Both the position numbers and the translations under genes were made by a program. Source: Xanthomonas vesicatoria ATCC 35937 (GTDB lineage: Bacteria; Pseudomonadota; Gammaproteobacteria; Xanthomonadales; Xanthomonadaceae). From it: a stretch of 64,000 bases of DNA. The notes beneath the pieces are model-generated. The model worked only from the letters and a program-made list of their open reading frames with translations, had not been told where the DNA came from and searched no databases. Of this stretch, positions 13,538-42,610 are shown piece by piece; the first letter of the stretch is position 1; every line of letters starts with the position of its first letter. The DNA lies in assembly GCF_001908725.1 (NCBI RefSeq), contig NZ_CP018725.1, positions 3,410,001 through 3,474,000 of the forward strand. Direction: 5' to 3'.

Positions 13538-13665
13538 GTACCCTCATCCGCAACTGCGGGGCACCTTCTCCCAGCGGGAGAAGGGATGTTTCTTCACTGT
13601 GCGGGAGTAGTGCGCGCAGCCGTAGCCCCTCTCCTGCGGGAGAGGGGTTGGGGTGAGGGTACGGG
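13538..13665. repeat. REP pair in inverted orientation (BIME-like)
   Basis: Two REP-type units face each other: 13538-13585, with the hairpin CTTCTCCCAGCGGGAGAAG, and 13624-13665, with the hairpin CCTCTCCTGCGGGAGAGG followed by the tail GGTTGGGGTGAGGGTAC. The same unit recurs at 35949, 36061, 40800 and 41198. The pair occupies the gap between virK and the minus-strand outer membrane factor gene and could act as a transcription barrier between these convergent genes. No gene is seen in the rest of 13383-13781. Confidence 0.85.
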
Positions 13666-35948: not shown

Positions 35949-36105
35949 AGCCCCTCTGCCGCCGGGAGAGGGGTTGGGGTGAGGGTACGGGCCTCCTCCC
36001 CGGGATCAGCCGCTTGCTGATGCTCTTATTTCGGCGATCGGCACCACCCAGCGGCATCGCACCCTCATCCGCCCTACGGGCACCTTCTCCCGGCGGGAGA
36101 AGGGG
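35949..36105. repeat. REP pair in inverted orientation (BIME-like)
   Basis: The first unit (35949-35990) has CCTCTGCCGCCGGGAGAGG and the tail GGTTGGGGTGAGGGTACGG. The second, inverted unit (36061-36105) ends CTTCTCCCGGCGGGAGAAG. Their order is the reverse of the pair at 13538 and the same as the cassette at 40800. The pair sits in the 549-base gap 35865-36413, where no gene is seen. Confidence 0.85.
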
Positions 36106-39432: not shown

Positions 39433-40548
39433 ATGAGCGCACAACCGAACAGCACTGTAGCCCGCCCTAATTTGGGGATGCAGGTCACCACCTTCGAAAA
39501 TCCGCTGGGAATCGACGGGTTCGAATTCGTCGAATTCGCCGCCCCTGCCGGACAGGCTGCGCAACTGCACGACTATTTCCGCAACATGGGCTTCAGCGCG
39601 GTGCTGCGTCACCGTAGCCGCGCCATTACCGTCTATCGCCAGGGCGGGGTCAATTTCCTGCTCAACGAAGATCCCGATTCGTTCGCTGCCGACTTTGCCG
39701 CCGCGCACGGCCCCTGCGCCTGCGGCTTTGCCATCCGCTTCCGCACCGCGGCCGACACCGTGCTGCAGACGGTGCTGGGCAATGGCGGCGAAGCGGTGCA
39801 AAACAAACCCGAGACGCGCGCGGTGCCGGCACCGGTGGTCAAGGGCATCGGCGATTGCATGCTGTATCTGGTGGATCGCTACGGCGATGCCGGCAGCATC
39901 TACGATGCCGACTTCGAGCCGATCGAAGGCGCCGATCAACACCCGGCCGGCTTCGGCCTGACCTTTATCGACCACCTCACGCACAACCTGTACTTCGGCA
40001 ACATGCAGCGTTGGTCGGACTACTACGAGCGCTTGTTCAACTTCCGCGAGATCCGCTACTTCGACATCAAGGGCGCCAAGACCGGCCTGGTGTCCAAGGC
40101 AATGACCGCCCCGGACGGCATCGTGCGCATTCCGCTCAACGAATCGTCCGACCCCAAGAGCCAGATCAACGAATATCTGGACGCCTACCAGGGCGAAGGC
40201 ATCCAGCACATCGCCTGCTTCACCGACGACATCTACACCAGCGTGGGGAAGATGCGCGCCGCTGGCGTCAGCTTCCTGGATACGCCGGACACCTATTTCG
40301 ACGTGGTGGACCTGCGCATTCCCGACCACGGCGAAGATGTCGAACGCCTGCGCCGCAACAAGATCCTGATCGATGCCGATGTGGACACCAAGCAGCGCAA
40401 GTTGCTGCAGATCTTCACCACCAATTGCATCGGCCCGATCTTCTTCGAGATCATCCAGCGCAAGGGCAATGAGGGATTTGGCGAAGGCAATTTCCAGGCA
40501 CTGTTCGAAAGCATCGAGCGCGATCAGATCAAGCGCGGGGTGCTTTGA
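39433..40548 (+). CDS. hppD: 4-hydroxyphenylpyruvate dioxygenase
   Basis: HppD converts 4-hydroxyphenylpyruvate to homogentisate in tyrosine degradation. The 371-residue chain has two VOC-like halves and the iron ligands in FIDHLTHN (His), GIQHIACFTDDI (His) and GPIFFEIIQRKGNEGFGEGN (Glu), with the C-terminal gate helix LFESIERDQIKRG. The downstream enzyme HmgA lies about 750 bases further on, with a REP-bounded nuclease cassette between. The MarR gene upstream is the likely regulator. Confidence 0.96.
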   Translation: MSAQPNSTVARPNLGMQVTTFENPLGIDGFEFVEFAAPAGQAAQLHDYFRNMGFSAVLRHRSRAITVYRQGGVNFLLNEDPDSFAADFAAAHGPCACGFAIRFRTAADTVLQTVLGNGGEAVQNKPETRAVPAPVVKGIGDCMLYLVDRYGDAGSIYDADFEPIEGADQHPAGFGLTFIDHLTHNLYFGNMQRWSDYYERLFNFREIRYFDIKGAKTGLVSKAMTAPDGIVRIPLNESSDPKSQINEYLDAYQGEGIQHIACFTDDIYTSVGKMRAAGVSFLDTPDTYFDVVDLRIPDHGEDVERLRRNKILIDADVDTKQRKLLQIFTTNCIGPIFFEIIQRKGNEGFGEGNFQALFESIERDQIKRGVL

Positions 40549-40799: not shown

Positions 40800-40842
40800 A
40801 AGCCCCTCTCCCCACGGGAGAGGGGTTGGGGTGAGGGTACGG
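40800..40842 (+). repeat. REP unit, left border of the DUF559 cassette
   Basis: This 43-bp unit has the hairpin CCTCTCCCCACGGGAGAGG and the tail GGTTGGGGTGAGGGTACGG. It matches the reverse complement of the right unit at 41198-41240 at 42 of 43 positions. It ends seven bases before the DUF559 start codon. Confidence 0.9.
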
Positions 40843-40849
40843 TGGAGCG

Positions 40850-41242
40850 ATGAAGATCAAACCGCCATTGCCCACGGTTGCACTAGCCCACGCACGCGCA
40901 TTGCGTCGCGAGATGACCCACTCAGAGCGCGCACTCTGGCGCTGTCTGCGAAGCAATCAGCTAGAAGGAGTCAAGTTCAGACGTCAGCATCCGATTCCGC
41001 CGTACATCGCAGATTTTTGTTGCATTGAAGCTAAGTTGATTGTTGAACTGGACGGATCGCAGCATCAGGCATCCATCGATCAGGCAAGAACGCGTTGGCT
41101 TCAATCGAAAGGCTGGATCGTGCTGCGCTTCTGGAATAACGATGTGTTGCTTTCGCTGGATGCTGTGGTTGAGGCGATCTTCACGATAGCCGCACCGCCG
41201 TACCCTCACCCCAACCCCTCTCCCGAGGGGAGAGGGGCTTAG
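40850..41242 (+). CDS. DUF559 domain nuclease-like protein within a REP-bounded cassette
   Basis: This 130-residue protein has a Vsr/PD-(D/E)xK-like DUF559 fold: EMTHSERALWRCLRS (Glu26), FRRQHPIPPYIADFCC (Asp55), KLIVELDGSQHQ (Glu67-Asp69 region) and VLRFWNNDVLLSLDAVVEAI. The last 15 residues (PPYPHPNPSPEGRGA) are read from the right-hand REP unit, whose end also supplies the TAG. The start codon follows the left REP by seven bases. The insert thus depends on the REP borders for its ends. DUF559 proteins are assumed nucleases; no activity is shown for this one. Confidence 0.85.
   Translation: MKIKPPLPTVALAHARALRREMTHSERALWRCLRSNQLEGVKFRRQHPIPPYIADFCCIEAKLIVELDGSQHQASIDQARTRWLQSKGWIVLRFWNNDVLLSLDAVVEAIFTIAAPPYPHPNPSPEGRGA
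41198..41240 (-). repeat. REP unit, right border of the DUF559 cassette
   Basis: This 43-bp unit is the inverted partner of the left border, with one mismatch in the hairpin loop region. It encodes the C-terminal tail of the DUF559 protein and its last base is the first base of the TAG stop. In the opposite orientation it resembles the units at 13624 and 35949. Confidence 0.9.
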
Positions 41243-41296: not shown

Positions 41297-42610
41297 ATGC
41301 AAGACCAATTTTCCTACATGACCGGTTTCGGCAACGAGTTCGCAACCGAAGCGGTGCCAGGCAGCCTGCCGGTCGGGCAGAACTCGCCGCAGCGCGTCGC
41401 GCACGGGCTGTATGCCGAGCAGTTGTCGGGTACCGCGTTTACCGCACCGCGCGGCGAAAATCGGCGCAGTTGGCTGTACCGCATTCGCCCGGCGGCCGTG
41501 CATGGCAGCTTCTGCTTGATCGAGCAGAAGCAGTTCCACAACGATTTTGGCAGCGGACCGGTGCCGCCGGATCAACTGCGCTGGAGTCCGTTGCCGCTTC
41601 CATCCACCTCCACCGATTTTGTCGATGGCCTGTACACCATGGCCGGCAATGGCGGGCCCGAGGCAATGACCGGGGTGGCGGTGCATCTGTATGCGGCCAA
41701 CGCCTCCATGCACGATCGCTTTTTCTACGATGCCGATGGTGAGTTGTTGCTGGTGCCGCAGCTGGGCCGGCTGCGGGTGCATACCGAGCTCGGCGTGCTG
41801 GAGCTGGAGCCGCAGCAGATCGGGGTGATTCCGCGTGGCGTGCGCTTTCGCGTCGAGTTGCTCGACGGCACCGCGCGCGGCTATGTCTGCGAAAACTTCG
41901 GCGGGTTGCTGCGCCTGCCGGACCTGGGCCCGATCGGTGCGAATGGCCTGGCCAATCCGCGCGACTTCCAGACCCCATGCGCCGCCTTCGAGCAGCGCGA
42001 AGGCGCGTTCGAACTGGTCGCCAAATTTCAGGGGCATCTCTGGCGTGCGGACATCGGTCATTCGCCCTTGGATGTGGTGGCCTGGCACGGCAATTACGCG
42101 CCGTATCGCTACGACCTGCGCCACTTCAACACCATTGGCTCGATCAGTTTCGATCACCCCGATCCGAGCATCTTCACGGTGCTGACCTCGCCCAGCGATA
42201 CGCACGGCACGGCCAATATGGATTTTGCGATCTTCCCGCCCCGCTGGCTGGTGGCGCAGCACACATTTCGCCCGCCGTGGTTTCACCGCAATGTGGCCAG
42301 CGAGTTCATGGGGTTGGTGCATGGCGTATACGACGCCAAGGCCGAAGGCTTCGCGCCGGGCGGTGCGTCACTGCATAACTGCATGAGTGGGCACGGCCCG
42401 GATGCGGCGACCTTCGACAAGGCCTCGCAGGCGGATCTGTCGCGCCCGGATGTCATCGCCGACACCATGGCCTTCATGTTCGAGACCCGTGCGGTGTTGC
42501 GGCCCACCCAGCAGGCGTTACAGGCAACCCATCGACAAGGCGATTACCAGCAGTGCTGGTCCGGCCTACGCGCAGGATTCAAGGCGCCGACGTCTGGCCC
42601 GGCGGATTGA
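41297..42610 (+). CDS. hmgA: Homogentisate 1,2-dioxygenase
   Basis: HmgA opens the ring of homogentisate to maleylacetoacetate. The 437-residue protein begins [20 protein letters not shown], characteristic of the family. The iron ligands are in [16 protein letters not shown] (His, Glu) and [15 protein letters not shown] (His). It completes the first two steps with hppD. The gene starts 54 bases after the DUF559 stop, so the cassette sits in the space between the two catabolic genes. Confidence 0.96.

Follow-up and report, generated by a model that had tools for sequence, protein, structure and literature searches.

A DUF559 nuclease gene framed by inverted hairpin repeats in Xanthomonas vesicatoria: the probable resident copy of a nuclease-repeat system

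Between hppD and hmgA of X. vesicatoria, a gene encoding a DUF559 nuclease is framed by two inverted palindromic repeats that belong to a multicopy class, the arrangement by which REP-RAYT systems are recognized. This segment is probably the genome's own copy of a system with two components, a DUF559 nuclease gene and matching repeats built of a hairpin and a purine tail, and would resemble the RAYT systems while employing an unrelated nuclease. REP-RAYT systems, as outlined in the relevant passages of PMC2817692, comprise a nuclease gene framed by two inverted palindromes, gene-less copies elsewhere in the genome, and co-variation of repeat and protein.

The features of the cassette are given in Table 1. 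Each repeat unit consists of AAG, a 10-bp hairpin (CCCCTCTCCC-NNN-GGGAGAGGGG) and the tail TTGGGGTGAGGGTACGG, which faces the cassette interior. The inverted 43-nt units described in the initial annotation are confirmed, with a mismatch at one position only (42 of 43). Widened to 50 nt, the left and right units are 94% complementary. The same annotation placed the ORF start seven bases inside the left unit; the distance of seven bases is right, and the ATG is located past the inner end of the unit. It also had the ORF ending in the right unit, which is the case, with 14 codons and the first base of the stop, rather than 15 codons, read from the repeat.

Table 1. The DUF559 cassette and its surroundings in the window, the whole 64,000-nucleotide stretch of X. 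vesicatoria DNA that was analysed
Feature	Position	Strand	Remarks
hppD, left neighbour	39433..40548	+	ORF; gene name as in the initial annotation
Left repeat unit	40800..40842	+	AAG, hairpin core 40803-40825, purine-rich tail TTGGGGTGAGGGTACGG toward the gene
Spacer TGGAGCG, 7 bases	40843..40849	+	From left unit to start codon; resembles a ribosome-binding site by eye
DUF559 (Vsr-like, PD-(D/E)XK) nuclease gene	40850..41242	+	130 aa; PF04480 E 1.2e-40
Right repeat unit	41198..41240	-	Inverted copy of the left unit (42/43); encodes the last 14 codons
hmgA, right neighbour	41297..42610	+	ORF; gene name as in the initial annotation
Further hairpin core of the same class	35951..35973	.	One mismatch

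The DUF559 identity of the ORF was confirmed by the PF04480 profile, against which the protein scored 138.2 bits compared with a cut-off of 20.6. The best protein match came from X. vesicatoria, at 97%. Residues E26, D55, E66, D68 and H72 are invariant in 33 sequences and are putative active-site residues of a fold of the PD-(D/E)XK/Vsr type. By sequence, the nearest solved protein is 3hrl (E 8.5e-35), followed by 3r3p (E 0.05) and Vsr 1cw0 (E 0.3); a Foldseek search with an AlphaFold2 model of the protein (mean pLDDT 75) returned 3hrl and the catalytic domain of I-Bth0305I (3r3p) at E <=1e-3, and Vsr at 0.04. The score against the Vsr family TIGR00632 was 16.5 bits, below the curated cut-off of 97.85. 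A role as a defence gene was considered and discarded, PADLOC having returned 0 families.

The dN/dS ratio of the nuclease core was 0.14, compared with 0.08 for hppD and 0.07 for hmgA (22, 22 and 23 sequences, respectively); judged by these ratios, purifying selection acts on the nuclease core in Xanthomonas. Synonymous divergence was lower in the REP-encoded tail (dS 0.25) than in the core (0.66), indicating that it is the DNA, not the peptide, that is constrained there. The repeat-encoded tail is used in two reading frames among homologues: in the best 120 of 4,905, to which the frame survey was confined, the tail was PHPNPSP-like in 110, TLTPTPLP-like in 3 and of other types in 7, which by eye were mostly truncated or near variants.

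The X. vesicatoria genome contains 33 hairpin cores (allowing up to one mismatch), compared with 0 matches to a reversed control pattern, so the repeat class cannot be attributed to chance. Three pairs of cores are spaced by less than 1 kb, and the pair that frames the DUF559 gene is the only one that is inverted with its tails inward, the remaining two being direct repeats. No second full-length DUF559 gene of the cassette type was found in this genome. A second, related repeat class, with a CCTTCTCCC-type hairpin and a GGATGAGGGT-type tail, often lies close to or is paired with the CCCCTCTCCC class; examples in this genome (G000) are found at L015, L061 and L068, and at positions 13563 and 36082 of the window.

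One rival explanation is that a RAYT (Y1 tyrosine transposase) moves the CCCCTCTCCC repeats, with the DUF559 gene as cargo. In its favour, a Y1 match was present in 31 of 35 Xanthomonas genomes. The RAYT repeats of Xanthomonas are, however, GTAGGAGCGC-type, according to the passages of PMC2817692 that deal with them, and the CCCCTCTCCC class was found within 600 bp of the Y1 gene at 0 of 10 loci (a set to which the Y1 locus of X. vesicatoria itself does not belong), although a GTAGGAGCGC-like site, too, was present within that distance at no more than 4 of these loci. Furthermore, the genome with the most cores of the 35 (G010, 68 cores) has no Y1 match. By these distributions RAYTs do not explain the CCCCTCTCCC repeat class, and transport by a RAYT is extremely improbable. 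The suggestion in the initial annotation of an alternative to RAYT is thus upheld, in that the CCCCTCTCCC class is distinct from the RAYT class, while its remark that the window holds no transposase is beside the point, as Y1 genes occur in most of the genomes and the examined ones do not adjoin the CCCCTCTCCC class. CGTC-type REPs, according to the pertinent part of PMC3733652, have no dedicated transposase.

In the same 35 Xanthomonas genomes, which include that of X. vesicatoria, a DUF559 gene of the cassette type, intact or broken, occupies the hppD-hmgA site in 25. It is next to hmgA at 25 of 25 loci and next to hppD at 24, the missing hppD coinciding with a contig end. Judged from stops and split matches, 21 of the genes are intact and 4 are broken (G008, G023, G026 and G029). 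Most of the cassette flanks examined have repeat units at both ends, with outer hairpins that are sometimes altered or replaced (e.g. L027-L029). In seven of the 10 cassette-less genomes, hppD and hmgA are separated by one symmetric hairpin, which is exact or shows minor changes; of the other three, G020 retains one unit and a decayed remnant of the DUF559 end, G025 lacks any unit, and the contig of G009 stops at the core. By eye, the hairpin-only state occurs at about six separate places on an hmgA tree, which represents one gene and may be affected by recombination.

The hairpin-only sites are best read as scars of precise, repeated loss. Owing to their palindromic cores, the units are also direct repeats of each other over 23 bp, and recombination or slippage between the cores would remove the cassette and leave one hairpin. 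Inverted pairs in E. coli, as treated in part of PMC4666352, have mostly had small parts deleted, with a hairpin still formable. The initial annotation envisaged a mobile cassette, and named a fixed site shared by all strains, with no empty site, as the observation that would speak against it. Within Xanthomonas the mobile cassette was not supported: all 25 loci are at hppD-hmgA, and the sites that might have been empty are apparent loss scars, so that the contrary observation was made in part. Present-day mobility in Xanthomonas was accordingly rejected, and the cassette, from its distribution, is old, fixed and now immobile in this genus, which counts against reading it as a spreading system.

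These observations would fit a reading of DUF559 as a housekeeping nuclease that cuts extruded hairpins or triplexes and so rescues replication, with the flanking repeats regulating or insulating their own gene and no spreading taking place. In Xanthomonas there is one full-length copy of the cassette type, at a fixed place and under selection, and nuclease and repeat are associated without visible movement. We nevertheless regard the housekeeping explanation as unlikely, because of the behaviour of the arms and cassettes in other lineages described below.

Genomes with an intact cassette (n=21) had more cores than nine genomes without one (p 5e-4, and p 0.008 when the low-copy genomes G019, G020 and G025 were removed), in comparisons that ignore kinship and leave out the four broken-cassette genomes and G009. 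With its cassette broken, G023 still has 59 cores. A second Xanthomonas DUF559 paralogue, about 50-57% identical, showed no inverted arms at 6 of 6 loci (L002 and L043-L047), and on this evidence is a repeat-free branch of the family.

Beyond Xanthomonas, a DUF559 match at E 1e-8 was present in 78 of 299 genomes of the phylum. At 80 of the DUF559 loci listed among these matches, we scored the best flanking inverted arms and compared them with 3,006 control windows of the same length from the same stretches. An arm score of at least 20 was reached at 52 of the 80 loci and in 1 of the 3,006 controls, and a score of at least 16 at 59 loci and in 9 controls; by coordinate arithmetic, the sole control window scoring at least 20 coincides with a neighbouring DUF559 match (L156@11401). 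A perfect stem of at least 6 was present in an arm at 57 of the 59 loci scoring at least 16, and the longer non-hairpin part of the left arm lay on the gene side at 41 of 52 loci. The DUF559-repeat arrangement pointed out in the initial annotation is far above background across the phylum.

The arms also co-vary with the nuclease (Mantel test of arm against protein likeness: r 0.31, n 52, p 5e-4). Among 20 pairs of DUF559 loci within the same genome, the arms were less than 0.5 similar in 15 (for instance in G205, G275 and G317) and 0.5 or more in five; that arm classes differ for most paralogues within a genome is not what a housekeeping nuclease would predict. Some unlike nucleases nevertheless have similar arms, for example L111 and L143, where similarity is 0.93 for the arms and 0.47 for the proteins, and such cases count against the two-part reading. 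In a set of named loci, the best 80 of 563, in which close relatives are over-represented for that reason, 47 of the 77 that were long enough scored at least 20 (the threshold being carried over from the phylum survey, which alone had controls; some genomes possibly also belong to the 80-locus set). The named loci include Xanthomonas, Pseudoxanthomonas, Luteimonas, Dyella, Variovorax, Mesorhizobium and Sphingopyxis.

A further explanation is that the protein is a mismatch repair enzyme of the very-short-patch (VSP) type, alongside which repeats collect as hitch-hikers or terminators. For the Caulobacter protein VsrA, itself a DUF559 protein, the sections of PMC12907096 concerned with it propose a role as a VSP enzyme and state that it is required for the SOS response in cells without the cytosine methyltransferase ScmA, and the sequence and fold similarity of the cassette protein to Vsr, albeit weak, points the same way. 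Mismatch repair leaves unexplained why the arms are inverted, lineage-specific and co-varying with the nuclease, and so strongly enriched at DUF559 loci (52/80 versus 1/3,006 windows); as for terminators, the portion of PMC4666352 (Holder et al.) on this point cites an earlier study in which the E. coli motif had no terminator activity. We therefore consider the mismatch repair explanation improbable, more so than the housekeeping one, and retain the two-part system as the preferred reading.

Not all DUF559 loci conform. An arm score below 16 was found at 21 of the 80 loci, none of four motif words occurred in 8 of 18 loci (17 low-scoring phylum loci and E. coli), and 8 of 8 Chloroflexi (Anaerolineae-type) DUF559 loci scored at most 10.5. 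These arm-poor loci, like the arm-less second paralogue of Xanthomonas, weigh against the two-part system. Spread by plasmids or phages was examined as a separate possibility and dismissed, DUF559 matches being present in 45 of 72,556 plasmid and 2 of 50,697 phage records. In Legionella, the recombination hotspots treated in part of PMC12308824 include three segments in which a transposase occurs together with a DUF559 gene.

Possible movement is indicated by G231, a genome that falls into one genus group with G089 and G205, two genomes with arms like those of the named Mesorhizobium locus L322. G231 carries two cassettes that are 86% identical over 589 bp, have arms of about 100 nt and lie in unrelated flanks, their similarity stopping within about 20 bp of the arms. 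The occurrence of the cassette at two unrelated places in another lineage is in line with the spread proposed in the initial annotation. At the first of these, 30 loci were examined out of 59 matched genomes, G231 itself included, and no cassette match was found in the 29 relatives, where the gap measured 32-84 bp in 17 and was longer in 12. By eye, the gap contains other repeat-like sequences in the relatives L231, L249 and L256, and so may be a hotspot. Target-site duplications, which the initial annotation had suggested seeking, were not recognized by eye at either G231 copy.

Gene-less pairs of arms, with starts about 160-220 bp apart, were also detected, at least three in G231 and at least seven in its relative G337, in arm searches that scored 9 of 44-45 candidates in each genome. 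In such pairs (L338-L357 of G337; contig C31 of G231), one arm matched the query more closely, its partner having diverged further. In G337, 17 arm copies were present in the 400 kb around the orthologous site, a region picked because an earlier arm search had matched there, compared with 0 in 400 kb of spread windows, so that arms have accumulated locally. No DUF559 protein match was found in either 400-kb sample, and the arms were possibly built up around a cassette that has since been lost. A housekeeping nuclease does not account for a cassette at two unrelated sites in G231, or for gene-less arm pairs and their local build-up.

The repeats recall TMECO, an intrastrand triplex motif that, in the sections of PMC4666352 devoted to it, occurs in more than 260 genomes, with 23 copies in E. 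coli K-12, could be connected neither with a specific function nor with transposons, phages or plasmids, and forms triplexes in vitro as E. coli oligonucleotides. By eye, the second loop has 4 bases in the Xanthomonas unit versus 3 in TMECO, and for this reason the exact TMECO pattern (CCCTCNCCC N3-6 GGGNGAGGG N3 GGGNGAGGG) has only 1 match in the X. vesicatoria genome, the cassette unit itself not conforming. The exact pattern was present in 57 of the 299 phylum genomes, and a DUF559 match in 42 of these 57 versus 36 of the 242 without the motif (p 1.5e-17, uncorrected for phylogeny and genome size). The other 15 motif-bearing genomes, including G174 (121 copies) and G088 (36), have no DUF559 match at E 1e-8, and a Pfam search found one in only 3 of them; such genomes would count against a cognate nuclease. 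A tail pattern of our own design was present in 19 of the 299 genomes, of which 14 have a DUF559 match, including all 10 with three or more occurrences, while the reversed control of this pattern matched in G124 (39 times) and G289 (once).

In E. coli K-12, the DUF559 gene ycjD (minus strand) ends at 1,351,407, and TMECO no. 9 is located at 1,351,204-1,351,239, 167 bp away. By eye, the last codons of K-12 ycjD run into an apparent decayed unit, and in E. coli 2021CK-01784 the final codons and the stop of ycjD fall within a TM-like repeat that is almost intact. The 5' side of ycjD bears a different palindrome, so the gene is not framed by two triplex motifs and does not form a full cassette. 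Motif words on the 3' side only were also found in G200 and G313, at two loci of one family; at the G200 locus (L112), many triplex-type motif words are arrayed 3' of the DUF559 gene at about 790-1530. At least 80% of the ycjD query was covered in 3,362 of 5,426 E. coli genomes. Candidate ycjD-less empty sites were rejected: L192 and L195 keep only the fabI side and have other genes there, and so are not clean empty sites, and the match of L193 sits elsewhere in the genome.

From the fold of the protein, and by analogy, we infer that the DUF559 protein would cut or nick the repeat and thereby cause it to be copied. In this model the protein, which is related to Vsr and to a homing endonuclease, would recognize the repeat once it has extruded into a hairpin or triplex, as might happen on single-stranded template during replication, and would nick at or near it; repair would then copy the repeat, or the cassette in full, into DNA close by. 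The cassette locus of Xanthomonas would have turned into a stably inherited gene. More tentatively, and with somewhat less than even confidence, DUF559 nucleases could be the missing mobilizers of a large hairpin/triplex class of repeats in Pseudomonadota, including TMECO and the Mesorhizobium-like repeats, and hence a second, chemically unrelated counterpart of RAYT.

It would thus seem that DUF559 nucleases spread or maintain a widespread class of repeats in bacteria, a role that has escaped notice until now. We found no report in PubMed Central that ties DUF559 to REP or inverted repeats, which does not establish absence from print; co-mentions of DUF559 and 'palindromic' were judged unrelated from titles and the starts of abstracts, and DUF559 is not mentioned in the relevant passages of PMC1913061. 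If the model is correct, there would be autonomous bacterial mobile elements whose sole gene is a Vsr-like PD-(D/E)XK nuclease, and repeats that spread by structure-directed nicking and copying, preferentially close to the nuclease gene. A cognate nuclease would supply triplex-type repeats with an origin and a mechanism, and would bring a second chemistry to REP biology. It would also provide a working hypothesis for a common, uncharacterized family, one that lends itself to study in E. coli K-12, which has both ycjD and 23 copies of the motif.

Among known systems, I-Bth0305I (3r3p), listed as a 'mobile intron protein' in the PDB, shares a related fold and a weak sequence match. I-Bth0305I serves in intron homing, and differs from the cassette protein in that it is not known to be framed by multicopy palindromic repeats. 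Vsr and Caulobacter VsrA also have a related fold, VsrA belonging to DUF559, whereas their proposed role is in mismatch repair, and the sections of PMC12907096 on VsrA make no link to repeats. A MITE and its parent insertion sequence offer a parallel to the framed cassette and the gene-less arm pairs (in G231, and in the sampled stretches of G337, which lack the gene). The cassette has no transposase of known type and no target-site duplication was seen; as to movement, which defines such elements, none was seen in Xanthomonas, and G231 has two non-allelic cassettes. TMECO/PIT (Holder 2015, PMC4666352, and Hoyne 2000 cited therein) is like the Xanthomonas repeat, as far as the relevant sections go, in its hairpin and purine third strand, its intergenic location, its occasional inverted pairs and a mode of loss that leaves a hairpin, and differs in the length of its second loop; no link to transposons, phages or plasmids is reported for it, and the word endonuclease is absent from the main text. 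The closest parallel in organization is with the REP-RAYT systems (REPtrons, REPINs), which likewise have one framed nuclease gene, gene-less copies and repeat-protein co-variation. The nuclease of those systems is a Y1/HUH tyrosine transposase, whereas the cassette gene encodes a Vsr-like DUF559 protein, and the Xanthomonas unit lacks the GT(A/G)G head of REP-RAYT repeats and carries instead a purine-rich tail, a potential third strand.
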